Below, piece by piece: positions 47,713 to 60,373 of a DNA stretch of 64,000 nucleotides. Position 1 is the stretch's first letter. Each line of letters begins with the position of its first letter. The notes under the pieces were generated by a model. The model saw only the letters and a list, made by a program, of their open reading frames with translations, did not search any database and had not been told where the DNA came from. The DNA comes from Glaciecola amylolytica. GTDB taxonomy: Bacteria; Bacteroidota; Bacteroidia; Flavobacteriales_D; Crocinitomicaceae. Position numbers and translations under genes: made by a program. The stretch covers positions 2,170,001 through 2,234,000 of the forward strand of contig CP034120.1 in NCBI GenBank assembly GCA_003856375.1, read 5' to 3'.

Positions 47713-48225
47713 ATGGACTATTATTTCAAAGACATGGATTCTCCGGTTGGCAGAATACGGCTTATTGCAAGTGAAAAAGGGCTTTCAGCACTACTTTGGG
47801 AAAATGATAATCCCAAACGAATCAAGATTCCGTCTTATTCGGAAAAAACCGATCATCCTGTTTTGTTAGAAACGGAAAAACAGCTGAATGAGTATTTTGC
47901 AGCCAAACGGCAATCCTTCTCGCTTCCTCTGCATTTTATCGGCACCGAATTTCAAAAGAAGGTCTGGGAAGCACTTTTATCCATCCCGTTTGGAGAAACA
48001 AGAACATACGGACAAATAGCAAAACAGCTCGACAACCCGCAATCACAGCAAGCTGTCGGGAATGCAAACAATAAGAACCCGATAGCAATTATTGCTCCTT
48101 GCCACCGCGTTATTGGCGCATCCGGAAAATTAGTCGGGTTTGCCGGCGGTTTAAAAAACAAGGAGATTCTGTTGAAAATTGAAGGCTATGGTGGAAACCA
48201 AATGAGTCTTTGGGATGATGAATGA
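47713..48225 (+). CDS. ogt: Methylated-DNA--[protein]-cysteine S-methyltransferase
   Basis: The 170-residue protein has the Ogt/AGT fold with the acceptor Cys130 in the motif IAPCHRVIG. VGNANNKNPIAII and LVGFAGGLKNKEILL complete the active-site region. It removes alkyl groups from O6-alkylguanine in a single-turnover reaction. It has no Ada regulatory domain. It is a single gene. Confidence 0.95.
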   Translation: MDYYFKDMDSPVGRIRLIASEKGLSALLWENDNPKRIKIPSYSEKTDHPVLLETEKQLNEYFAAKRQSFSLPLHFIGTEFQKKVWEALLSIPFGETRTYGQIAKQLDNPQSQQAVGNANNKNPIAIIAPCHRVIGASGKLVGFAGGLKNKEILLKIEGYGGNQMSLWDDE

Positions 48226-48567: not shown

Positions 48568-48575
48568 TATGTTTG
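48568..48575 (+). promoter_or_regulatory. -7 box upstream of the mevalonate-triterpenoid operon
   Basis: TATGTTTG matches TAnnTTTG exactly and lies 24 bases before the first ATG of the operon. No good TTG is found at the -33 distance; a TTA at 48543 is the nearest. A six-codon ORF (MKKKND) begins at 48587 and overlaps the operon start. Confidence 0.5.
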
Positions 48576-48599: not shown

Positions 48600-49706
48600 A
48601 TGATTAGAAGGGTAACATATTATTCCTTTCACGCATCTGAGTTGGTTTATCTTTTACAAATGAAGAAAGAATTCAAACAATTCAAACCTTCAGAATACCG
48701 CTTGAAAGATTTGTCTCAAACCACGGATGATTTAAGTTATTGCTATGAAGCGCTCAAAAAGGTTTCACGTTCTTTTGCTGTCGTAATCCAGCAATTGCCG
48801 GAGGAACTGAAAAATCCTGTTTGCTTGTTCTACCTTGTTTTACGAGGTCTTGATACCATTGAAGATGACATGAACATCGACAATTCTGTCAAGAAGGACA
48901 TGCTGCTTACCTTTGCTGACCGCATAAACAAAGAAGAATTTATTCTTGAAAATGTCGGAGACACCCAGGACTATCAGGATCTGATGCTTCATTTTGACAA
49001 AGTAATTCGTGAATATCAAAAACTTGGACCGGAATACAAAGCCGTTATTACTGAAATAACCAATGAAATGGCAATCGGGATGAACAAGTATGCGCATAAA
49101 GACGTTGAAAGTTATGAAGACTGGAACGATTACTGCTATTACGTTGCCGGATTGGTTGGAATTGGTTTGAGCAAATTGTTTCTTGCATCAAAGTTAGAGA
49201 CAAGTGTTAAGCTCTCTGACAAACGTCTCAGCAATGAAATGGGATTGTTTCTTCAAAAAACAAATATCACTCGTGATTTTGCAGAAGATTTGGAACAAGG
49301 ACGTATTTTCTGGCCGGAGGAATCCTGGAAAAACAAAGCAAATACATTGCACGAATTACAGGCGGATGAAAAAAGCGGACTTGCTGCATTGAATGAAGTA
49401 GTACTCAATGCATTGGGACATGTTCCTGCTTGTTTGGAATTTTTAGAATGCCTGGACAATCAGAAAGTTTTTCGTTTTTGCGCCATCCCGCAATTGATGG
49501 CTATTGCAACATTGAAAGAATTGTACAACAATCCTCTGGTCTTACACCAAAACGTTAAAATCAGAAAAGGAAAAACGGCTAAGTATTTCATTGCCATTCA
49601 GGATTTTAACAGTACTAAAAAAGAATTTATCTCTATTCTTAAAAGTTTAGAGAAAAAAGATAATACAGGTAAAATTAAATCAATACTAGCCGAAATTCAA
49701 AAATGA
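48600..49706 (+). CDS. Eukaryotic-type squalene synthase (farnesyl-diphosphate farnesyltransferase)
   Basis: The 368-residue protein joins two FPP molecules through presqualene diphosphate to squalene. It resembles ERG9/FDFT1 more than bacterial phytoene/squalene synthases: SRSFAVVIQQL, FYLVLRGLDTIEDDM with the first Asp motif (85-89), YCYYVAGLVGIGLSKLF with the key Tyr, LQKTNITRDFAEDLEQGR with the second Asp motif (226-230), and FCAIPQLMAIATL. The N-terminal HASELVYLL segment aligns with HPEEFYNLV of the human enzyme, which supports the 48600 start. The C-terminal membrane anchor of eukaryotic enzymes is missing. It is the first gene of the operon and overlaps the next by 4 bases. Confidence 0.92.
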   Translation: MIRRVTYYSFHASELVYLLQMKKEFKQFKPSEYRLKDLSQTTDDLSYCYEALKKVSRSFAVVIQQLPEELKNPVCLFYLVLRGLDTIEDDMNIDNSVKKDMLLTFADRINKEEFILENVGDTQDYQDLMLHFDKVIREYQKLGPEYKAVITEITNEMAIGMNKYAHKDVESYEDWNDYCYYVAGLVGIGLSKLFLASKLETSVKLSDKRLSNEMGLFLQKTNITRDFAEDLEQGRIFWPEESWKNKANTLHELQADEKSGLAALNEVVLNALGHVPACLEFLECLDNQKVFRFCAIPQLMAIATLKELYNNPLVLHQNVKIRKGKTAKYFIAIQDFNSTKKEFISILKSLEKKDNTGKIKSILAEIQK

Positions 49707-51019
49707 GCACAGGTGAATTTGATATCATAGTGATAGGTGCCGGAGTTGCCGGAGGAGTATTTGCTGCTTCTCAACCTTCCAGCACGCGCATTCTTGTGGT
49801 GGAACGCGACCTTTCGGAACCGGATAGAATTATCGGTGAATTGATGCAGCCCGGAGGAATCCAGGCCTTAAATGAACTGGGACTTAGTCATTTACTGGAA
49901 GGTATTGACGCTCAGGAAGTCAATGGGTATAATCTGATAAAAGGAAACGAACGCTTTACAATCAAGTACGATGAAGTCCAAAAAGGAATCAAGGGTCTTG
50001 GTTTGAGAAACGGAAAGTTTCTGACAAATATCCGAAAAGAGCTTCAGCAGCGTGAGAATATCACGGTGGTTCAGGGAAATGTTACCCAAATTTTGGAGGA
50101 CAACAACACCATCATTGGTGTAAGCTACACACAGGAAGACGGAACGAGCGTTTCTCAATATGCAAAATTGACAATCGTTTGTGACGGACCAATGTCCGTG
50201 CTGCGTGATAAGTTGAGCAAAGTAAACAAGAAAGTAACTTCCTATTTCATGGGATTGGTTCTGAAAGATTTGGAATTAGAATTTCCTTCTTATGGCCACA
50301 TGATTGTTACCGGTGATTTTCCAATTCTGGTTTACCCGATTCACACCAATGCTTATCGGATCTTAATTGATTATCCCGGAGGAAAAGCTCCCAAAATGGG
50401 TAAAGAATCGATTGAACGATTGAAAGAAGCTGTTGTGAAAATCATGCCCGAAGAAATGATTCAGGCATTTTTAAAGGCGATTGACGAAGAACCCTTAAAA
50501 GTCATGCCGAATCACTCCATGAAAGGTCAGGCATTTCGTATGAAAGGTGCCGCACTTTTGGGTGATTCATTGAATATGAGACATCCTTTAACCGGTGGAG
50601 GAATGACCGCATGCTTTACAGATATCCTTTGTCTGAATGGCAAATTAGCGGGAATTGATTTTCAAAATGAAACCAAACTGGAACACGCCGTTAATGAATA
50701 TTATCAGTCCAGAGGGAAAAATGTGGAGACAATCAACATTTTGGCAAACGCTTTGTATGAAGTGTTTACAGATGATGAATTAAAGGATGCGTGTTTTGAG
50801 TATTTACAAAAAGGAGGAGAACAAGCTACAGGCCCACTTTCCATTCTTTCAGGAATAAACAAAAACAAACAATTTCTGCTGAAACACTTTTTTAAAGTGG
50901 CAATGCAGCATCCGATACATTTTATTACTAAACCGGCGAAACAAATACGCTTATATAAAAATGCCACAAGAATTCTTCGTCCGATATTAAAGGATGAAGA
51001 GGTTCCGGCAATGATCTAA
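49703..51019 (+). CDS. Squalene monooxygenase (epoxidase), eukaryotic ERG1 type
   Basis: The 438-residue flavoprotein converts squalene to (S)-2,3-oxidosqualene with O2. The FAD dinucleotide fold begins IIVIGAGVAGG (8-18). VERDLSEPDRIIGELMQPGG (33-52) and LLEGIDAQEVNGY match the strongly conserved ERG1/SQLE segments. The DG motif is at 161-162 and GDSLNMRHPLTGGGM at 287-301 is the second FAD site. The end has NILANALYEVF and a basic amphipathic region. The N-terminal membrane segment of the animal enzyme is absent. It overlaps the squalene synthase gene (ATGA) and the isomerase gene (TAATG). Confidence 0.92.
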   Translation: MSTGEFDIIVIGAGVAGGVFAASQPSSTRILVVERDLSEPDRIIGELMQPGGIQALNELGLSHLLEGIDAQEVNGYNLIKGNERFTIKYDEVQKGIKGLGLRNGKFLTNIRKELQQRENITVVQGNVTQILEDNNTIIGVSYTQEDGTSVSQYAKLTIVCDGPMSVLRDKLSKVNKKVTSYFMGLVLKDLELEFPSYGHMIVTGDFPILVYPIHTNAYRILIDYPGGKAPKMGKESIERLKEAVVKIMPEEMIQAFLKAIDEEPLKVMPNHSMKGQAFRMKGAALLGDSLNMRHPLTGGGMTACFTDILCLNGKLAGIDFQNETKLEHAVNEYYQSRGKNVETINILANALYEVFTDDELKDACFEYLQKGGEQATGPLSILSGINKNKQFLLKHFFKVAMQHPIHFITKPAKQIRLYKNATRILRPILKDEEVPAMI

Positions 51020-52038
51020 TGGAAAAAATTGAACACGAATCGCTTGAAGCGGCAGACTTAAGAAAACAGAATCATTTGGATTTGGCTTTTGCTTCGCAAA
51101 GTGCCTTGTCGGATGGTCGTTTTTATTACGAACCGATGTTAGAGGGACATCCTGAGCAATCAGACTTGTCTATTCAGCTGGGAGAAAAAACAATGCGTTA
51201 TCCTGTCTGGATTTCAAGTATGACAGGTGGTACGTCCGCTGCAGGTCCAATCAATAAAATGTTGGCAAAAACGGCCAATAAATATGGTTTTGGTATGGGC
51301 CTGGGGTCTTGTCGGATTATTTTGGAAGACAATACCTATTTCGATGATTTTAACCTGCGTCCGATCCTTGGTGATGCTTCTCCCCTATACGCCAATGTTG
51401 GTATTGCTCAAATTGAGCGATTAATCGATAAAGGTCGGGCCTCTAAGTTAAAAGCACTGGTAGATAAACTGGATGCAGACGGCTTGATTGTACATGTTAA
51501 TCCGTTGCAGGAATGGTTGCAGCCGGAAGGTGATTTAATTCAACGCTCTCCGCTTGTCACAATCAAGCAGTTGCTGAATGAGATTGACACCAACATCATT
51601 GTGAAAGAAGTTGGTCAGGGCTTTGGTCCTGAAAGCATGAGAGAATTGTTGAAATTGCCGATTTTGGCAATTGACTTTGCCGCAAATGGCGGAACAAATT
51701 TTTCAAAATTAGAGCTTTTGCGTAACGAGCCGTTAAAAGCGCATTATGAAGACGTGATTGCTTTGGGACATTCTGCTTCCGAAATGGTCGATTTTTTAAA
51801 TCAATCAATCCAGGAACTAGGTTCTGAACGTAAATGTAATAATGTGATTATAAGTGGCGGGATAAAAAACTTTTTAGATGGTTATTACTTAACCTCCAAG
51901 GCAAATATCCCCGCAATTTATGGTCAGGCAGCGCCATTCTTAAGACATGCAAATGAATCACAGGAAGCCCTGGATACATTTGCGGAAATCCAGATAAAAG
52001 GATTACTAATGGCTCAAAAATTTTTAAAAATAAGGTAA
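51019..52038 (+). CDS. fni: Type 2 isopentenyl-diphosphate delta-isomerase (FMN-dependent)
   Basis: The 339-residue protein interconverts IPP and DMAPP. It shows the type 2 hallmarks: RKQNHLDLA, WISSMTGGT for FMN, GMGLGSCR, HVNPLQEWLQPEG, VKEVGQGFG and IDFAANGGTNF. The type is unrelated to the Nudix isomerase. The gene is read through a 1-base overlap with the epoxidase gene and abuts the HMG-CoA reductase gene, so it belongs to the same transcript. Confidence 0.95.
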   Translation: MEKIEHESLEAADLRKQNHLDLAFASQSALSDGRFYYEPMLEGHPEQSDLSIQLGEKTMRYPVWISSMTGGTSAAGPINKMLAKTANKYGFGMGLGSCRIILEDNTYFDDFNLRPILGDASPLYANVGIAQIERLIDKGRASKLKALVDKLDADGLIVHVNPLQEWLQPEGDLIQRSPLVTIKQLLNEIDTNIIVKEVGQGFGPESMRELLKLPILAIDFAANGGTNFSKLELLRNEPLKAHYEDVIALGHSASEMVDFLNQSIQELGSERKCNNVIISGGIKNFLDGYYLTSKANIPAIYGQAAPFLRHANESQEALDTFAEIQIKGLLMAQKFLKIR

Positions 52039-53349
52039 ATGGTACAGATAGAGGGGTTCTCAAAAAAGAACAAGCAGGAGAAGTTGGAAGCGATTACACG
52101 ATTTTTTAAGTCGCCGGAAAAAACGATGGAAACATTTAAAAGTTTTGATCACCCGGTAGTTGCTGTTCAAGAAGTGATTAACGAGTTTAGTGAAAATACC
52201 ATATCGAATTTCCACTTACCCTATAGCATTGCTCCAAACTTCTTAATCAATGGAAAGACGTTTGCCGTTCCAATGGTCATTGAAGAAAGTTCGGTTGTTG
52301 CTGCGGCTTCAAAAAGTGCGAAGTTCTGGTATGCTTTAGGAGGGTTTCATACAGAGATTGTTGATACCGAAAAAGTAGGACAAGTTCATTTCTTATGGCA
52401 CGATGATATTGAAAAACTGACCAGTCGTTTTGATGAATTAAAACAACTTTTCTTCAACGGTTCAGAAGATATTACTGTAAACATGCGTAACCGCGGTGGA
52501 GGTATAAAGGATATCGTTTTAAAAGATCTTTCTGACAAAGAACCGGGATTAATGCAGTTGTTTGTCACTTTTGAAACGATTGATTCAATGGGAGCAAATT
52601 TCGTGAACTCCTGTTTGGAAAAGTTCGCTGAAATATTCAGAAACTGGCATCAAAACCAAGCGGACCTGAAAAAGGACGGATTGGAAATCATTATGTCCAT
52701 TCTCTCTAACCTTACCCCTAATTGTGTGGTGAAATGTTGGGTAGAAACAGATGTTAAAAATCTGGATGGAATTGTTCCTGGTGTTTCCGGGAAAGAGTTT
52801 GCTAAAAAATTCCATACTGCCGTAAGAATTGCGCAGGTAGATCCTTATCGTGCAACGACACACAACAAAGGAATTTACAATGGCGTTGATGCAGTCGTAT
52901 TAGCAACAGGAAATGATTTCAGAGCGGTTGAAGCTTGTGGTCATGCTTATGCAAGTATCAATGGGTCGTATTCTTCATTAACGAATTGTACGATTGAGAA
53001 TGATATCTTCCGTTTTGAGTTGACTTTACCTATTGCATTGGGAGTAGTTGGCGGATTGACGAACTTACACCCCCTGGTGAAACTGTCACATGAATTGTTG
53101 GATTTCCCGAATGCAAGAGAATTGATGGGAATAGCAGCTGCAGCAGGATTGGCAAACAATTTTGGAGCCGTTAAATCATTGACAACGACAGGAATTCAAC
53201 AAGGACACATGAAAATGCACTTGTTCAATATCATGAATCAATTGGAAGTTAAAAAAGAAGACCGCGATAAAATAGTAGCTTACTTCAAAGACAAAAATGT
53301 CTCTGTATCTGCGGTTCGTATGTATGTTGAATCTCTTCAATTAGTTTGA
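52039..53349 (+). CDS. Hydroxymethylglutaryl-CoA reductase, class II
   Basis: The 436-residue protein reduces HMG-CoA to mevalonate. It has PMVIEESSVVAAAS with the catalytic Glu, ETIDSMGANFVNS, ATGNDFRAVEACGHAYAS with the catalytic Asp region, and the catalytic His390 in QQGHMKMH. The soluble, anchor-free form and motif details fit class II, as usual for Bacteroidota. It is in the biosynthetic direction here, because downstream mevalonate enzymes are in the same operon. The ATG directly follows the stop of the isomerase gene. Confidence 0.93.
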   Translation: MVQIEGFSKKNKQEKLEAITRFFKSPEKTMETFKSFDHPVVAVQEVINEFSENTISNFHLPYSIAPNFLINGKTFAVPMVIEESSVVAAASKSAKFWYALGGFHTEIVDTEKVGQVHFLWHDDIEKLTSRFDELKQLFFNGSEDITVNMRNRGGGIKDIVLKDLSDKEPGLMQLFVTFETIDSMGANFVNSCLEKFAEIFRNWHQNQADLKKDGLEIIMSILSNLTPNCVVKCWVETDVKNLDGIVPGVSGKEFAKKFHTAVRIAQVDPYRATTHNKGIYNGVDAVVLATGNDFRAVEACGHAYASINGSYSSLTNCTIENDIFRFELTLPIALGVVGGLTNLHPLVKLSHELLDFPNARELMGIAAAAGLANNFGAVKSLTTTGIQQGHMKMHLFNIMNQLEVKKEDRDKIVAYFKDKNVSVSAVRMYVESLQLV

Positions 53350-54252
53350 TTGGCAGTTCCGGAAAATACAATAAGGACCTACAAAGCATCAGGAAAACTG
53401 ATGCTTTTTGGTGAATATTTAGTGCTGAATGGATCAGACTGTCTGGCTTTTCCCTTAAAGTTCGGACAAACACTTTCAGTAACAAAGTCTGATGATAATA
53501 TCATCTGGGAAAGTTATTCCAAACATGGAAGCTGGTTTTCTGCTTCTATGAACAACGATTTCACCATTCTGGAGACCAATAACGAAGAAGTAGCAGAAAT
53601 TTTGAGACAGTTGTTCATCGTGATACGAGCAGAAAAACCCGATCTTGATTTCAAGCAAAAATTCCGTGCAGAAGCAAATTTTGAATTGAATTGGGGCCTT
53701 GGTTCCAGTTCTACATTAATCAGCTTGTTGAGTCAATGGTCAGGTGTCGAAGCAAAAAAGCTTCTCGATGCATCTTTTGGCGGATCAGGTTACGATGTAG
53801 CTTGCGCAACGGCAGAAGGCCCGATTGTATATGCTAACGGAAAAATCAGAAAGGAAGCACACCTCCCGGAGTCGATTACGAATAAACTATTGTTTGTTTA
53901 TTTAGGGAATAAGCAAAACTCACGGGAAGAAATTAAGCGTTTTAAGAATAAAAACGTTGCTCAACACCAAGTCGATGCTATTAATGCAATGATCTCAACA
54001 GCCATCCAAACGGATGAAATTGATGTATTTGAGCAGCAATTGAATCTTTCTGAAGAGTTAATTTCTTCCATTATAGAGACTATTCAATTAAAACAGCGTT
54101 TATTTGCCGATTATCCATATAGCATCAAGTCGCTGGGTGCCTGGGGCGGAGATTTTTTTCTTGCCACATATAGAGATCTAAAAACAGCAAAAGTCTATTT
54201 CGAAGAGAAAGGATATGATACATTATTTACGTATCAGGAATTCATAAAATAA
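53350..54252 (+). CDS. GYDIA-family GHMP kinase, candidate phosphomevalonate kinase
   Basis: The 300-residue protein uses a TTG start placed right after the HMG-CoA reductase stop; KASGKLMLFGEYLVLNG follows. The ATP loop is NWGLGSSSTLIS, and SGYDVACATAEG is the motif that names the GYDIA group. The third motif, KSLGAWGGDFFL, is present. Two further GHMP enzymes in the operon look like the decarboxylase and mevalonate kinase, so the missing phosphomevalonate kinase step is the natural assignment. This is context, not proof. Confidence 0.85.
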   Translation: MAVPENTIRTYKASGKLMLFGEYLVLNGSDCLAFPLKFGQTLSVTKSDDNIIWESYSKHGSWFSASMNNDFTILETNNEEVAEILRQLFIVIRAEKPDLDFKQKFRAEANFELNWGLGSSSTLISLLSQWSGVEAKKLLDASFGGSGYDVACATAEGPIVYANGKIRKEAHLPESITNKLLFVYLGNKQNSREEIKRFKNKNVAQHQVDAINAMISTAIQTDEIDVFEQQLNLSEELISSIIETIQLKQRLFADYPYSIKSLGAWGGDFFLATYRDLKTAKVYFEEKGYDTLFTYQEFIK

Positions 54253-55308
54253 ATGGAAACAGATAAGGAACTAATGAATAAAGTAAAAGTAACGTGGCGC
54301 TGCCCGTCTAATATTGCTATTGTTAAATACTGGGGAAAGAAAGGAACTCAAATACCTTGTAATTCTTCGTTGAGTTTGACGTTGTCAAATTCATACACGG
54401 AAGTTGAAGCCGAATTATCAGAAAAAACATCTGATGAAGTGGTACAGCTATCCTACTATTTTGAAGGATCAATCAATGAGCAATTCGGTCAACGTGTTGC
54501 TAAGTTTTTAATGGATAATCGTGAATTCTTCCCGTTTGTAGACGAAAAAGCAATTACGATCCATTCCTCGAATAGTTTTCCTCATTCAGCGGGAATTGCT
54601 TCTTCTGCATCTGCATTCGGTGCAATTTCTCTGGCATTGTTAGATATTGCCTATAGCTTACAAGGAAAGGAAAAAGACGAAACTTTTTACATGGAGGCAA
54701 GTAATCTGGCTCGATTAGGAAGTGGAAGTGCATCACGCAGTATGTTCTCAGGATTTGCTTTGTGGGGAGAAAACGAACAAATCCAACACTCTTCCAATCA
54801 GCATGCGATTGAAATCAAAGAGGTGCATCCAACATTTCACAATATGAAAGATGCCATTCTTATCATCGAAGACGAGCCTAAGAAAGTATCCAGTTCTGTT
54901 GGTCATTCCTTGATGAATAATCATCCTTATGCAGAAAATCGCTTCAAGCAGGCAAATGAACGTACAGCTGAATTAGTTGAGATTCTGAAGACCGGAAACA
55001 TGGAAGCATTTATTCACATGTGTGAATCAGAAGCATTGACATTACATGCCATGATGATGACGTCTATGGATTATTACTTGTTGGTGAAGCCGGGAACCAT
55101 TACAGCGATTGAAAAATTGATGGAATTTCGCAAGGAAAGCAAGGTTCCTGTTTGTTTTACCCTGGATGCAGGTCCGAATGTTCATGTACTTTATCCAAAA
55201 GCGTATGAAGTACAGGTAGAAGAGTTTATCAAAAACGGTTTACGTGACACCTATAAAAAAGTCATTTTCGATGAAGAGGGCTCCGGTCCAACAAAAATGA
55301 ATAGTTAA
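54253..55308 (+). CDS. mvaD: Diphosphomevalonate decarboxylase
   Basis: The 351-residue GHMP protein converts mevalonate diphosphate to IPP, CO2 and phosphate. The hallmark PSNIAIVKYWGKKG and the CNSSLSLTLSN strand are near the N-terminus. SFPHSAGIASSASAFGA is the ATP loop, RLGSGSASRSMFSGF carries the catalytic segment, and DAGPNVHVLYP ends the domain. The start at 54253 follows the previous stop without a gap; an internal Met nine codons on is possible. Confidence 0.94.
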   Translation: METDKELMNKVKVTWRCPSNIAIVKYWGKKGTQIPCNSSLSLTLSNSYTEVEAELSEKTSDEVVQLSYYFEGSINEQFGQRVAKFLMDNREFFPFVDEKAITIHSSNSFPHSAGIASSASAFGAISLALLDIAYSLQGKEKDETFYMEASNLARLGSGSASRSMFSGFALWGENEQIQHSSNQHAIEIKEVHPTFHNMKDAILIIEDEPKKVSSSVGHSLMNNHPYAENRFKQANERTAELVEILKTGNMEAFIHMCESEALTLHAMMMTSMDYYLLVKPGTITAIEKLMEFRKESKVPVCFTLDAGPNVHVLYPKAYEVQVEEFIKNGLRDTYKKVIFDEEGSGPTKMNS

Positions 55309-55311
55309 TAA

Positions 55312-56253
55312 ATGGAAAGCGTTAATTCAAAAATTTTAGTGTTTGGAGAATACGGTGTTTTACACAACGGTATGGCGCTGACAATTCCATTCAGTAAGTT
55401 TTCCGGGGAATTGTGTTATCCTGAAAATGGAGAGGAAAGTGCAATTGCAGTACTATCCAACAAAGGTATCAGAGAATTCTTCAAGCATATTTTAGAAAAT
55501 CACACGGACGATACATTCAAATTGAATGTGAATGAGTTATCCCGTGAATTGGACAAGGGCTTATTTTTCAGAAGTGATATTCCACAAGGTTTTGGTTTGG
55601 GAAGTTCCGGTGCACTTGTTGCCGCAATATTCTTACGTTACCTCGAAAAAGCCGGTGATTTCAAGGATGAATTGAAACATTTGACAATGGATCGCATTCA
55701 TAGCTTAAAAAGCTGTCTGGGTACTTTGGAAGGACATTTTCACGGAAAGAGTTCCGGGATTGATCCGTTGAGTATTATTATCAATAAGCCCCTACTGCTA
55801 AAAGCCAACAAAGAAATCGTAAAGGTGGATATTCCGGTTTACAATGAAAACGGAAAGAACGTGCTGTTTCTATTGAATACCCGGATAGCGAGAAACTCAG
55901 AGAAACTGATTAAACAGTTTAATAGTGCCTGCGAAAAGGAAGACTTTCAGCAAAAGTTGGAAACAAAATTAATTGAGTATACCAATGCAGGGATTACTAA
56001 TTTCCTGAAAGGAGATACTGAAAATTTTTACCTGAATCTGGAGAAGCTAGTCAAATTTCAATTGGATGAAATGCATTATCTGATTCCGGAAAAATACCAA
56101 AGCATTGTGAAGCAAGGTTTGGATACGAAAGAATATTACCTAAAGATTTGTGGAGCCGGTGGTGGTGGATACATGATCGGGTTTACACAAAACTGGGAAG
56201 AAACACAGCAATTATTAAAAGACGAAGATTTAGAAGTTTTCTATAGATTTTAA
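55312..56253 (+). CDS. Mevalonate kinase
   Basis: The 313-residue GHMP kinase phosphorylates mevalonate. It starts SKILVFGEYGVLHNGMALTIP, has DIPQGFGLGSSGALVAA as ATP loop, GHFHGKSSGIDPLSI with the catalytic Asp, and KICGAGGGGYMIGF as the third GHMP motif. It lies 3 bases after mvaD and 3 bases before the polyprenyl synthase gene. Confidence 0.9.
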   Translation: MESVNSKILVFGEYGVLHNGMALTIPFSKFSGELCYPENGEESAIAVLSNKGIREFFKHILENHTDDTFKLNVNELSRELDKGLFFRSDIPQGFGLGSSGALVAAIFLRYLEKAGDFKDELKHLTMDRIHSLKSCLGTLEGHFHGKSSGIDPLSIIINKPLLLKANKEIVKVDIPVYNENGKNVLFLLNTRIARNSEKLIKQFNSACEKEDFQQKLETKLIEYTNAGITNFLKGDTENFYLNLEKLVKFQLDEMHYLIPEKYQSIVKQGLDTKEYYLKICGAGGGGYMIGFTQNWEETQQLLKDEDLEVFYRF

Positions 56254-56256
56254 ATT

Positions 56257-57243
56257 ATGACGACAACAACTACAATAAAAGAGGATTTAGAAATCCAAAA
56301 AAGAGCGATTATTCAATTTTTGGAGACAGACGCATTAGAAGGTTTCCCAAGTAACTTATCTGATTCCACGTATCATATCATGACACTGGAAGGAAAGCGT
56401 TTGCGTCCTATTATGGTGTTAATGGCTGCTCAGGGGTTTGGTGTAAGTACTGAAGCGGCTATGTCTGCAGCAATTTCAATTGAAGTATTCCATAATTTCA
56501 CATTGGTACACGACGATATCATGGATAAGGCTGCGTTGCGCAGAGGAACAATTACTGTTCATGAAAAATACGGAGTTGATAAAGCCATTGTAACAGGAGA
56601 TGCCATGTTACCGCATTCTGTTGCTTTATTGATCAAAGGAAATGAAGAAAAGTCTGTCGTTTTATTAAAAAGTTTCCTGAAAATGGCTCAGGAAGTGATG
56701 GAAGGACAACAATATGACATGGAATTCGAGACACAGGAAGTTGTAACTGTGGAAGAATACATGAACATGATTCGCCTGAAAACATCTGTTCTGTTTGGAT
56801 GTGCTTGCGAAATAGGTGCTATTTTAGGACATGCTTCCGTTGAGGATCAGAAAAAACTATACGATTTTGGACTTTATACCGGATTAGCATTCCAAATTAT
56901 GGATGACTACCTGGATACATTCGGTGATGATACATTCGGAAAACGAATCGGAGGTGATATCTTACTGAACAAAAAGACTTTCTTGCTGATCAACGCAATG
57001 CAGCATGCAAACGCAGATCAAAAAGCACGTATCACGGAGTTGTTTGAAGAAAAAGATGAAGAAGCAAAAATCAGTGGATTCCAGGCTATTTTCAAAGAAA
57101 TCGGAGTAGGTAAAATTGCTTTGGATAAAATGGAAGAATTGCATGATAAATCTGTAGAAGCAATTATGTCTTCCGGTCTTTCTGAAGAAGATAAAACGAA
57201 AATGATTGCATTGGGTGAAATCATGCTTCGCAGAACAACTTGA
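56257..57243 (+). CDS. Polyprenyl (probably farnesyl) diphosphate synthase
   Basis: The 328-residue trans-prenyltransferase has GKRLRPIMVLMAA, the first Asp-rich motif DDIMD (86-90) and the second DDYLD (216-220). A Phe lies five residues before the first motif and there is no two-residue insertion in it, a pattern that does not settle FPP versus GGPP. Since squalene synthase and the cyclase are in the same operon, FPP is the expected product. It sits 3 bases after the mevalonate kinase gene. Confidence 0.9.
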   Translation: MTTTTTIKEDLEIQKRAIIQFLETDALEGFPSNLSDSTYHIMTLEGKRLRPIMVLMAAQGFGVSTEAAMSAAISIEVFHNFTLVHDDIMDKAALRRGTITVHEKYGVDKAIVTGDAMLPHSVALLIKGNEEKSVVLLKSFLKMAQEVMEGQQYDMEFETQEVVTVEEYMNMIRLKTSVLFGCACEIGAILGHASVEDQKKLYDFGLYTGLAFQIMDDYLDTFGDDTFGKRIGGDILLNKKTFLLINAMQHANADQKARITELFEEKDEEAKISGFQAIFKEIGVGKIALDKMEELHDKSVEAIMSSGLSEEDKTKMIALGEIMLRRTT

Positions 57244-57249
57244 TACACC

Positions 57250-59496
57250 ATGAATTTCGACCAAAAAGATCCCTCCTATTTTTGGGATACCTGGAAATTT
57301 TCTTCAAAAAACGGGCAGCAATTCTGGCAATTTGAAATTCCGGACGAACTAAAGGGAATCATTCAGTCTGAATCTGACTGGGATAAACCCGAAGGCATCG
57401 CTTTTTTAGAGGCCTTTGATCGTGCATTTGTTTTTGACAAGAAAATTAATCCGAATTCGGCTGACCGCGTACTTCGGTATTTACGCAATAAGCAAGTTGG
57501 TGAACCAAGCATTATACCGTCAGACGATTCTCTTTCACTCAAAGATAGAGCACGAATCGGCCTGTTAAATGGCTTTTCATTTTACGAAACATTACAAGAA
57601 CCGGATGGAAATTGGGCGGGGGACTACGGTGGTCCGCTTTTTCTGATTCCGGGATTAGTGATAGCATCCTACATTACCGAAACACCTTTTGAAAAACCGA
57701 CGCAGGTTTTAATGAAGCGCCATTTATGGAATCACCAAAACGAAGACGGTGGTTGGGGATTACATATCGAGGGACATTCAACCATGTTCGGAACGGTCAT
57801 GCAATATGTGACCTTGCGCATTTTGGGAGAAGATCTTTCAAATCCTCAAATGAAACGAGCTCAGGATTGGATTTTGAGTCATGGTGGTGCAATTAAAGTT
57901 CCGCAATGGGGTAAGTTCTACTTATCCGTCTTGAATGTTTATGACTGGAAAGGAAATGACGCGCTTTTGCCTGAAATGTGGAAATTTCCGAAATGGGTAC
58001 CTTTCCACCCCGGAAAATATTGGTGCCATAACCGGATGATTTTTCTACCCATGTCTTATTGCTTTGGTAAAAAAGTGAAGGCCGAACTGACACCGCTGGT
58101 AAAAGAATTAAGAAAAGAACTCTATACAACCGATTACGATTCCATTCATTGGAAAAAAGCACGTCGTGAAGCCTGCGAAGTTGATATTTATCATCCGGTG
58201 AACAAATGGTATCTCCGCTTATGTAAAATTACCAACGCATATGAGCGCATCCATTCGAAACGATTTCGGAAAAAAGCTCTCAAATACGCTGAGGATTACA
58301 TTGATTTTGAAGATACTTACACGCGGTATATCAACATTGGTCCCGTAAATCAGGCTATCAACTCTATTTACGCATGGCACAATCACGGAAAAGATTCCGA
58401 ACAATTTAAAAACCATGTGAAACGCTGGAAAGATTATCTGTGGCTTGCCGAAGACGGTCTTAAAATGGGAGGTTATAACGGATCCCAATTATGGGATACC
58501 GGATTTGCCGGCCAGGCGCTAGTTGAAGCAGATATGGAAGTCAGTTTTCCGGAAATGGCAGAGAAAATTTATCGCTACATCGATAGTTCACAAATTGAGC
58601 GTAATGCAAAAGACTACGACAAATACTGGGGTGATGTAACACTCGGTTGCTGGCCTTTTTCAACCATCGACCACGGATGGGCAATCACGGATTGCACGTC
58701 AGAGGGAATGAAGACTGCCATTTTGTATAACAACAAAGAACACATCAAAAAGCAAAACCACATCGGTTTGGAGCGTTTAAAACCCGCTGTTGATTGGTTG
58801 TTATCTATGCAAAATAAAGACGGAGGCTGGGCTTCTTATGAAAAGCAAAGAGCTCCGAAATGGATTGAAGTATTAAATCCTGCTTTGTTATTCGAAAACA
58901 TCATGACGGAAGCAACCTATACGGAATGCTCTTCTGCCACCATGCAGGGATTAAAGGAATTCGCAAAACACCATGAATACCGCAGAGAAGATATCAAAGC
59001 GGCACTTGATCGCGCTGGGAAGTTTATACAATCAAAACAGGATCCCGATGGTTCATGGTATGGTTGTTGGGCGGTATGTTACACGTATGGAACCTGGTTC
59101 GGTATTGAAGGTTTATTAACAGCCGGATTTAAAAATTACGAAAACGATGCTCCTTCTCCGGAAGTTCAGAAAGCCTGTGAATTTTTGTTGAGTAAACAGC
59201 GTGCTGATGGCAGCTGGGGAGAATCCTTTCAATCTTGCGTAGAGCATAAATACATTGAACACGAAGACGGACAAATAGTCAATACGGCATGGGCGCTTCT
59301 TGCTTTAATGAAAGCAAAACATCCGGACAAAAAAGCCATTGAAAAAGGGATTGAGTTTCTTCTTTCCCGCCAGGAATCAAACGGTGATTTTCCTCAAGAA
59401 GGAGTTTCCGGTATCTTTAACGGAAACTGTGCGATAACGTATACTTCTTATCGAAACATTTTCCCTTTATGGGCAATCGCACGTTACTATTCCTAA
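57250..59496 (+). CDS. Oxidosqualene cyclase with DCTSE catalytic motif
   Basis: The 748-residue protein is a full-length class II triterpene cyclase. The protonating motif is DCTSE (481-485), the DCTAE position of oxidosqualene cyclases; squalene-hopene cyclases have DxDDT. Several QW repeats are visible: QNEDGGWG, QNKDGGW, QDPDGSWYG, QRADGSWG, QESNGDF. CHNRMIFLPMSYCFG, GWAITDCTSEG, WAVCYTYGTWFG and CAITYTSYRNIFP match plant and animal enzymes closely. Tyr409, His475 and Ile479 correspond to the residues that favour cycloartenol in plant cycloartenol synthase. It cyclises 2,3-oxidosqualene; the exact product is open. It ends the operon before a strong terminator. Confidence 0.95.
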   Translation: MNFDQKDPSYFWDTWKFSSKNGQQFWQFEIPDELKGIIQSESDWDKPEGIAFLEAFDRAFVFDKKINPNSADRVLRYLRNKQVGEPSIIPSDDSLSLKDRARIGLLNGFSFYETLQEPDGNWAGDYGGPLFLIPGLVIASYITETPFEKPTQVLMKRHLWNHQNEDGGWGLHIEGHSTMFGTVMQYVTLRILGEDLSNPQMKRAQDWILSHGGAIKVPQWGKFYLSVLNVYDWKGNDALLPEMWKFPKWVPFHPGKYWCHNRMIFLPMSYCFGKKVKAELTPLVKELRKELYTTDYDSIHWKKARREACEVDIYHPVNKWYLRLCKITNAYERIHSKRFRKKALKYAEDYIDFEDTYTRYINIGPVNQAINSIYAWHNHGKDSEQFKNHVKRWKDYLWLAEDGLKMGGYNGSQLWDTGFAGQALVEADMEVSFPEMAEKIYRYIDSSQIERNAKDYDKYWGDVTLGCWPFSTIDHGWAITDCTSEGMKTAILYNNKEHIKKQNHIGLERLKPAVDWLLSMQNKDGGWASYEKQRAPKWIEVLNPALLFENIMTEATYTECSSATMQGLKEFAKHHEYRREDIKAALDRAGKFIQSKQDPDGSWYGCWAVCYTYGTWFGIEGLLTAGFKNYENDAPSPEVQKACEFLLSKQRADGSWGESFQSCVEHKYIEHEDGQIVNTAWALLALMKAKHPDKKAIEKGIEFLLSRQESNGDFPQEGVSGIFNGNCAITYTSYRNIFPLWAIARYYS

Positions 59497-59629: not shown

Positions 59630-60373
59630 TTAATAATCCCATATTTTTGAAATTATTTTCTTTTGATCGTGCAAATCGGTTCCGCTTATTCTGTCCCAAA
59701 ACCTTCCACCTACAAGTTGTTCTGCATCATACGTTTTCACCATATAGTCTTCTATTTTTCCATCCAACTTTCTATTTTCCATTAAAAAAGTCCATAATGA
59801 CAGACGCCCTTTATCATCTTCAGCTAAAACACTTTTTACAAAGGCGTGAGGAATCGGAATATCAATTCCCAGATCATCATGTTTTCCAATCGTTTCAATC
59901 ACTTTATTAAAATAAAATACTGGTGCTGATAGAACGTATGTTTCTAAAATTTCTCTTTTAGAATTGAGAACTCTGACTTTATTTTCTAACTCACCCCACA
60001 AATGACGATTTAATTCTTCTTTTTGAGGGGTCATATTCGAGAGCAGGAATGTTTCACTATTTTGAATGGGTTGATTTATTTGATTGGCACTCGATACCAG
60101 ATGCCCCCGGTCATATCCACTGTTTTTATAATCATCTAAACTTGCTCTAAATCGTGGCGGGATTCTTATATCTGCTCTGAAATTGTCAAATCGTTCAACC
60201 GGATCGAGAACTGTTCCAACAAGATAATTATTTCTATTTACTATTTCCAAGGTCCACTTAGCTTGTCTAAAATACCAAGAGTATCCAATAGTAAAAAAGC
60301 GATTGGTTAAAATTTCGTCGCATGGTGGCGCACCATACCTAAGTTCAGGCTGCATTAAAAAAGGATTATCCAT
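59630..60373 (-). CDS. DNA/RNA non-specific endonuclease (NUC1 type)
   Basis: The 247-residue protein has the beta-beta-alpha-metal nuclease motif DRGHLVSSAN with the catalytic His91, and the metal-binding Asn in LSNMTPQKEELNRHLWGELE. VLSAPVFYF and IPHAFVKSVL are typical strands. No signal peptide is visible, which is unusual for secreted NUC1 enzymes, so it may act inside the cell, be delivered in another way, or need a partner. No immunity gene is recognised beside it. Confidence 0.88.
   Translation of the reverse strand: MDNPFLMQPELRYGAPPCDEILTNRFFTIGYSWYFRQAKWTLEIVNRNNYLVGTVLDPVERFDNFRADIRIPPRFRASLDDYKNSGYDRGHLVSSANQINQPIQNSETFLLSNMTPQKEELNRHLWGELENKVRVLNSKREILETYVLSAPVFYFNKVIETIGKHDDLGIDIPIPHAFVKSVLAEDDKGRLSLWTFLMENRKLDGKIEDYMVKTYDAEQLVGGRFWDRISGTDLHDQKKIISKIWDY

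Follow-up and report, generated by a model that had tools for sequence, protein, structure and literature searches.

The central finding of this analysis is that nine genes lying end to end on the + strand, at positions 48600-59496 of a 64,000-nucleotide stretch of Glaciecola amylolytica DNA (contig CP034120.1, positions 2,170,001 to 2,234,000; the window, below), encode what appears to be a route from 3-hydroxy-3-methylglutaryl-CoA (HMG-CoA) to a cyclised triterpenol. We consider it fairly likely that they form a single-promoter operon that would convert HMG-CoA to cycloartenol, as a second isoprenoid line beside the 2-C-methyl-D-erythritol 4-phosphate (MEP) pathway. The window sits in a single-contig genome of 4,606,342 bases (G000). 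All open reading frames (ORFs) were confirmed at their place and strand, and the genes abut, with eight junctions of -4, -1, 0, 0, 0, +3, +3 and +6 nt. The initial annotation had described nine genes of these families, overlapping or 0-6 bases apart, and the ORFs, junctions and family matches agree with it. Its view of one operon-like unit leading from HMG-CoA to a cyclised triterpenol is likewise upheld by gene content, tight junctions and kept gene order. The features are as follows.

48568..48575, +, candidate promoter element, a TAnnTTTG box (TATGTTTG), from alignment of upstream regions
48600..49706, +, squalene synthase (TIGR01559 376 bits, cut-off 287; PF00494)
49703..51019, +, squalene epoxidase (squalene monooxygenase; PF08491 248 bits; best PDB match 6c6n squalene monooxygenase, E 7e-76)
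51019..52038, +, type-2 isopentenyl-diphosphate isomerase (IDI-2; TIGR02151 186 bits, below the cut-off of 281; no Pfam match; best PDB match 2zru isopentenyl-diphosphate isomerase, E 6e-30)
52039..53349, +, HMG-CoA reductase (HMGR), class II type (PF00368; TIGR00532 267 bits, cut-off 260)
53350..54252, +, GYDIA-family GHMP kinase, mevalonate or phosphomevalonate kinase, with a TTG start at 53350 (NF040656 285 bits, cut-off 225; PDB matches weak, the best a mevalonate kinase, E 0.016)
54253..55308, +, diphosphomevalonate decarboxylase (TIGR01240 175 bits, cut-off 171; PF22700)
55312..56253, +, mevalonate-kinase-like GHMP kinase (TIGR00549 76 bits, below the cut-off of 163; PDB 2x7i mevalonate kinase, E 6e-5)
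56257..57243, +, short-chain prenyl diphosphate synthase, the presumed source of farnesyl diphosphate (FPP; PF00348 230 bits)
57250..59496, +, oxidosqualene cyclase (TIGR01787 669 bits, cut-off 323; best PDB match 1w6k human lanosterol synthase, E 1e-205)
59630..60373, -, convergent ORF forming the 3' boundary, outside the operon (ORF list; begins after a 133 nt gap)

In the proposed pathway, HMGR would produce mevalonate, which the two GHMP kinases and the decarboxylase would convert to isopentenyl diphosphate (IPP), with IDI-2 balancing IPP and dimethylallyl diphosphate. The prenyl synthase would then supply FPP, a presumed product since neither the family models nor the PDB matches decide between FPP and geranylgeranyl diphosphate, and squalene synthase, squalene epoxidase (using O2 and FAD) and the cyclase would act in turn to yield cycloartenol, without later demethylation. 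The MEP pathway would supply housekeeping isoprenoids and carotenoids, a division of labour that we infer. The initial annotation had spoken of the whole lower mevalonate pathway, which would require one of the two GHMP kinases to be phosphomevalonate kinase. HMGR and the decarboxylase pass their family cut-offs, and the two kinases are presumed to divide the remaining steps between them.

Conservation among relatives carries much of the argument for a functional unit. In tblastn searches with the nine proteins, an identical gene order was found in all seven untruncated loci (L013, L014, L016, L017, L019, L020 and L021) and again in a genome of the same genus (L139/G444), with all nine ORFs full-length in each of these eight relatives; in three further loci (L015, L018 and L022) the contig stops short, so that only part of the operon is seen. 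Because the same nine genes recur in the same order, the operon is not a chance arrangement, and because the flanking genes mostly differ between loci, the nine genes appear to be the conserved unit. The flanks compared, which in most loci span some 1.3 kb on the upstream side and as much as 10 kb on the downstream side, have few ORFs in common: two upstream in L139 and L019, one upstream in L016 and L017 (GAPDH-like by eye), one downstream in L017 and L018, one downstream in the window, L139 and L020, and two downstream in L013 and L022. The related loci come from a cyclase scan of genome contigs in which 218 stretches fit the pattern, 213 were confirmed and the best 80, representing 77 loci, were kept. 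Ten of these loci encode cyclases at 73-89% identity and bear the names Fluviicola, Taishania pollutisoli, Crocinitomicaceae, Flavobacteriales or Bacteroidia, the nearest named relatives (88-89%) being Fluviicola, which places the window's genome in that genus or near it. The next three, at 43-48%, are from Methylococcaceae, Deltaproteobacteria and another Bacteroidetes, and the remainder, at 23-29%, are taken for squalene-hopene cyclases. In a sample of 395 genomes of the phylum, the cyclase was matched in 10 (E <= 0.001), over most of its length in five, namely the genome of the window and four others with 32-33% identity. A plasmid location or transfer found no support in a tblastn search with the cyclase, as all 50 plasmid records were below 60% identity; top-ranked among them was a cyclase-like gene on Planktothrix agardhii plasmid NZ_LR882940.1 (53984-55852), 37% identical to that of the window.

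Co-directional genes, near-zero junctions, kept gene order and one conserved promoter-like box suggest that the nine genes are co-transcribed from a single promoter. The box, TAnnTTTG, which we take to be the Bacteroidota -7 consensus, lies 24 nt before the first start codon and is aligned in all seven Fluviicola/Taishania loci (window, L139, L019, L020, L021, L013 and L014); it is absent from L016 and L017, where another gene abuts the operon. In the window, no TTG was found at the -33 spacing to the box. A sigma-70 scan returned fewer sites than shuffled sequences (24 versus a mean of 33.6) and was not used. Upstream, a gap of 374 nt separates the operon from a co-directional ORF (47713-48225) that is methylated-DNA-methyltransferase-like by eye.

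The product of the cyclase is the best-known part of the locus. The protein is a full-length, two-domain oxidosqualene cyclase, which TIGR03463 scores at 658 bits, below its cut-off of 851. Its catalytic D481/C482 correspond to D455/C456 of human lanosterol synthase (DCT motif), and H260, F470, Y530, W607 and F723 are conserved (human H232, F444, Y503, W581 and F696, which we take to be diagnostic of oxidosqualene cyclases). Residue mapping aligns Y409/H475/I479 with human T381/C449/V453, and I729 with human I702. All three positions of the cycloartenol synthase triad, Y381/H449/I453 in human numbering (PMC5101207, PMC4919349), are thus as in cycloartenol synthases, and the same Y,H,I has been reported for the cyclase of Fluviicola taffensis (PMC5101207). 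The product is already known for the genus, since F. taffensis has been shown to make cycloartenol only, with no further modified sterol reported (Wei, Yin and Welander 2016, PMC4919349). Residues and published lipid together indicate that the window cyclase probably makes cycloartenol. We regard as quite improbable, the least likely of the alternatives considered here, that it yields another skeleton, whether lanosterol, parkeol or an arborane alcohol: residues beyond the triad may control the product, and identity to the human enzyme is only 46%, but the cyclase has the Y/H/I triad, and Wei et al. state that, in the organisms they tested, F. taffensis included, cycloartenol was associated with I453 and lanosterol with V453 (PMC4919349). 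As for the arborane case, the Eudoraea cyclases fall in Group 2a, apart from the F. taffensis enzyme (PMC4919349). An isoarborinol-type product, for which the initial annotation had invoked Eudoraea adriatica, was rejected in view of this published clade placement and the triad, and that parallel finds no support.

Cycloartenol also seems to be where the route stops. Because no CYP51-like P450 was found genome-wide in G000 (C-14 reductase and SdmA/SdmB were not searched for), the end product is likely the unmodified cyclisation alcohol, as the initial annotation had proposed from the lack of C-14 or C-4 demethylase, reductase and P450 genes in the window. The P450 model PF00067 gave a single 33-bit match in G000 and none in the seven other genomes searched. 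That match lies in a 697-aa protein (contig C1 of G000, ~995.4-997.5 kb; L155 1424-3517) whose C-terminal half is P450-like and which also contains a weak GST_C-like stretch; its gene directly follows a DyP-peroxidase-like gene. This protein is unlikely to be CYP51, and with it the sole candidate for sterol tailoring by a P450 was set aside.

The second major finding is that this operon lies in a genome with genes of another isoprenoid pathway. HMGR has one match in G000, the operon copy, and DXR and IspH (NF009911 451 bits, cut-off 440) are both present, from which we infer a complete MEP pathway. Among the 18 genomes of the family, including G000, HMGR occurs in five and DXR in 17, the only genome without DXR being G418, and DXR is present in the genomes of all ten loci L013-L022; none was found in the genome of L025, where a related cyclase adjoins no mevalonate genes. 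In a sample of 80 genomes of the order, HMGR was found in 33, DXR in 57 and both in 12 (a count across two tables). Ten of the genomes carrying both are other than G000 and G444, and the reductase fetched from each (L090, L092-L100; G428 carries a second, unfetched copy) had no tblastn match to that of the operon (E <= 1e-4). Two of these reductases, those of L093 and L100, were examined, and their best model was TIGR00533, below cut-off; the former is followed by a PPDK_N-type ORF, and the latter is fused to an APH-type domain. The operon also adds to the enzyme complement: G000 and G444, which carry it, have three prenyl synthases, whereas each of six other family members has two, and the extra one is the operon copy. 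Elsewhere in G000, a second SQS_PSY gene (C1:169225) adjoins a type-1 IPP isomerase (above cut-off) and an ORF that is CrtI-like by eye, and a lycopene-cyclase domain lies near a second prenyl synthase. The simplest reading is that the mevalonate arm may be a dedicated sterol supply. As a separate observation, family member G411 has DXR and neither a detectable IspH nor HMGR, either an assembly gap or an unusual isoprenoid route.

The G418 genome, which lacks both DXR and IspH, has IDI2-HMGR-GYDIA together (54, 63 and 48% identical to the operon genes; MVD and MVK are not in the 16 kb read), and in f57, the family of G427, GYDIA follows HMGR in nine of 14 HMGR loci (the 16 kb read of G396 does not include it), with HMGR-GYDIA-MVD-MVK adjacent in G427 itself (L144). 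The middle of the operon is thus a common cluster of the order, flanked by squalene synthase and epoxidase on its 5' side and by prenyl synthase and cyclase on its 3' side. The same clusters lend weight to an alternative that we think unlikely, although less so than the others weighed here, in which the operon is the main isoprenoid supply for all needs, with sterol genes appended, and the MEP genes are secondary or condition-specific. Yet DXR is kept in all ten L013-L022 genomes and in 17 of 18 family genomes, only five of which have any HMGR, and the operon brings its own prenyl synthase and IDI-2 though other copies exist.

Several points nevertheless weigh against a single-promoter sterol operon served by its own mevalonate line. 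The evidence for the MEP pathway in G000 covers two enzymes, DXR and IspH. IPP is pooled in one cytoplasm, and a "dedicated" flux is thus only proposed. Mevalonate in G418 probably serves general needs. No terminator-like site is listed on the + strand between 59496 and 59630. Finally, HMG-CoA synthase, which the initial annotation had looked to a genome search to provide, gave no PF01154 match in G000, in the seven other family members searched or in any of six operon relatives, which leaves the mevalonate arm without a recognised entry enzyme.

This last result is also what speaks for the mevalonate block being a non-working relic, with squalene made from MEP-derived IPP, an explanation to which we give little credence. 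Nine full ORFs in each of eight relatives are not relic-like, and a missing PF01154 match need not mean missing HMG-CoA. Among the eight f57 genomes with HMGR and without DXR, a match was found in four (82-94 bits), a weak one in one (29 bits) and none in three, and PF01154 was not found in G418 either. The family model is therefore a poor yardstick, and because the three f57 genomes and G418 must get HMG-CoA, a divergent synthase or leucine-derived HMG-CoA may be involved. A gene resembling HMG-CoA lyase was found in all 13 genomes searched, always below cut-off, but the same search matches all 14 controls, above cut-off in three, and so decides nothing. A carboxylase beta subunit scores 484 bits as methylcrotonyl-CoA carboxylase, while its best PDB matches are acetyl-/propionyl-CoA carboxylase AccD1 (510) and propionyl-CoA carboxylase (498). 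A leucine route to HMG-CoA is thus possible, if weakly supported, and an operon acting from HMG-CoA to cycloartenol beside the MEP pathway is still the reading that we prefer.

The third finding is a split among the cyclases of operons that share the nine-gene order. Among 11 intact operon-type sequences (window, L139 and L013-L021; the L022 cyclase, with 23 stops in the straight frame, was excluded, its stops shown as X in the alignment), four have I453/I702 in human numbering (window, L139, L019 and L020; I/I), whereas seven have V453/E702 within the motif NCMETY (L013-L018 and L021; V/E). Identity is still 80-85% between the nearest I/I (window, L139, L019 and L020) and V/E (L021 and L013) loci, and five alignment columns, including 450, 453 and 702, fully separate the two sets. 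Both types occur in isolates (L014 and L019, one of each), I/I in Fluviicola chungangensis MAH-3 and V/E in Taishania pollutisoli CZZ-1, and L013, L020 and L021 are contigs of metagenome-assembled genomes (MAGs). Because the cyclase of L025 (48% identity) is V/E and that of L024 (43%) combines Y,H,I with I702, either state may be ancestral (the L023 sequence ends before residue 702). Y,H,V has been reported as a lanosterol-synthase triad, one that seems to be unique to bacteria (PMC5101207), and residue 702 is listed in a docking table as a ligand contact beside D455, V453 and H232 (PMC8911567). The product of the V/E relatives may therefore be lanosterol or, in view of the glutamate, another compound.

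The split does not appear to follow the history of the other operon genes. In a nucleotide tree of the eight genes without the cyclase (L015 and L018, contig-truncated, were excluded from trees), two V/E loci have I/I sisters, L021 pairing with the window and L013 with L139 (bootstrap 97 for each), whereas the cyclase tree unites all I/I sequences (bootstrap 100). In approximately unbiased tests, the eight-gene data reject the cyclase tree; the eight-gene tree is in turn rejected by codons 151-350 of the cyclase and by codons 351-end, though not by codons 1-150. These blocks were picked after viewing sliding identities. Among six loci, 46 cyclase sites split I/I from V/E, 32 of them in codons 201-400, while 17 follow the eight-gene split, none of which is in codons 201-350. 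For the other eight genes combined, the corresponding counts are 27 sites that split I/I from V/E and 94 that follow the eight-gene split. At the protein level the eight-gene tree has weak support (24-50% at three inner nodes), with L139 and L013 again paired (96) and L021 not the sister of the window, and single-gene trees are mostly weak. This pattern fits an intragenic mosaic, in which close relatives seem to have exchanged cyclase alleles through recombination, although it could partly be assembly error as three of the loci are MAGs. We predict that such exchange may change the product within the clade.

Taken together, these observations raise a broader idea, speculative enough that we would sooner doubt than accept it: the operon might be an autonomous sterol module, with a private mevalonate line reserved for sterol and possibly fed with leucine-derived HMG-CoA, other isoprenoids coming from the MEP pathway, and with a cyclase swapped by recombination (around codons 200-400 plus 453 and 702), so that related species would make different sterols, one perhaps undescribed. 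Why bacteria make sterols is an open question. An operon with its own precursor supply, which seems to end at the unmodified cyclisation product and lies in a genome with genes of a second pathway, is a separable system in which, in principle, sterol could be lost while other isoprenoids are still supplied. Moreover, the natural I453/I702 and V453/E702 pairs, found within one and the same operon type, offer ready tests of cyclase product choice, which bears on the reading of cycloartenol- and lanosterol-derived fossils as eukaryotic. Searches of the open-licence literature found neither this operon nor a dual pathway described for Fluviicola, and as far as these searches show, four features are new: conservation of the nine-gene order among these relatives, the presence of MEP genes alongside it, the absence of a recognised canonical HMG-CoA synthase, and the cyclase polymorphism (I/I against V/E).

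In three other Bacteroidota genomes, tblastn and ORF analysis place a squalene-epoxidase-like domain and an oxidosqualene cyclase in one frame of about 1140-1150 aa (L004 25-3450, +; L005 40-3501, +; L006 1408-4827, -). These are apparently natural bifunctional fusions. Only the L004 protein was put through family and PDB searches, which assign PF08491 to aa 155-310 and TIGR03463, below cut-off, to aa 489-1112, with TIGR01787 above cut-off; a further candidate (L007) is truncated at its contig start.

Comparison with known systems places the operon closest to F. taffensis, of the nearest named genus, which has the same Y,H,I triad (PMC5101207), in which cycloartenol was detected and for which no downstream tailoring genes are reported (PMC4919349). 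Its epoxidase (Fluta_3221) and cyclase (Fluta_3214) are seven locus tags apart (PMC4919349), as are genes 2 and 9 of the window operon, and the words "operon" and "mevalonate" each occur zero times in the main text of that paper. The initial annotation had held that known bacterial sterol loci rarely have the whole lower mevalonate pathway and an epoxidase-cyclase pair in one transcript, a claim that needs qualifying: the order is common to the relatives examined, and the Sandaracinus amylolyticus sterol cluster, as drawn, also unites sterol and isoprenoid-precursor genes, although unlike the window operon it has a gene for a C-24 reductase that modifies the sterol at a later stage (PMC12004948). 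Eudoraea adriatica resembles the window in having a Bacteroidota oxidosqualene cyclase with a squalene epoxidase alongside (G504DRAFT_2315/2316), but the enzyme belongs to another clade (PMC4919349). The Flavobacteriales cluster of G427 (L144) has four of the window's genes in the same order, HMGR-GYDIA-MVD-MVK (53, 35, 43 and 36% identity), but within the 16 kb that were read it is accompanied by none of IDI-2, prenyl synthase, squalene synthase, epoxidase and cyclase, and its genome is without DXR. The product would differ as well from that of Eudoraea adriatica, whose cyclase is known to make isoarborinol. A parallel in design is found in Streptomyces, where mevalonate clusters for secondary terpenoids exist beside the MEP pathway: like the system proposed here, they represent a second, dedicated mevalonate pathway, in a different phylum and with a different end product.

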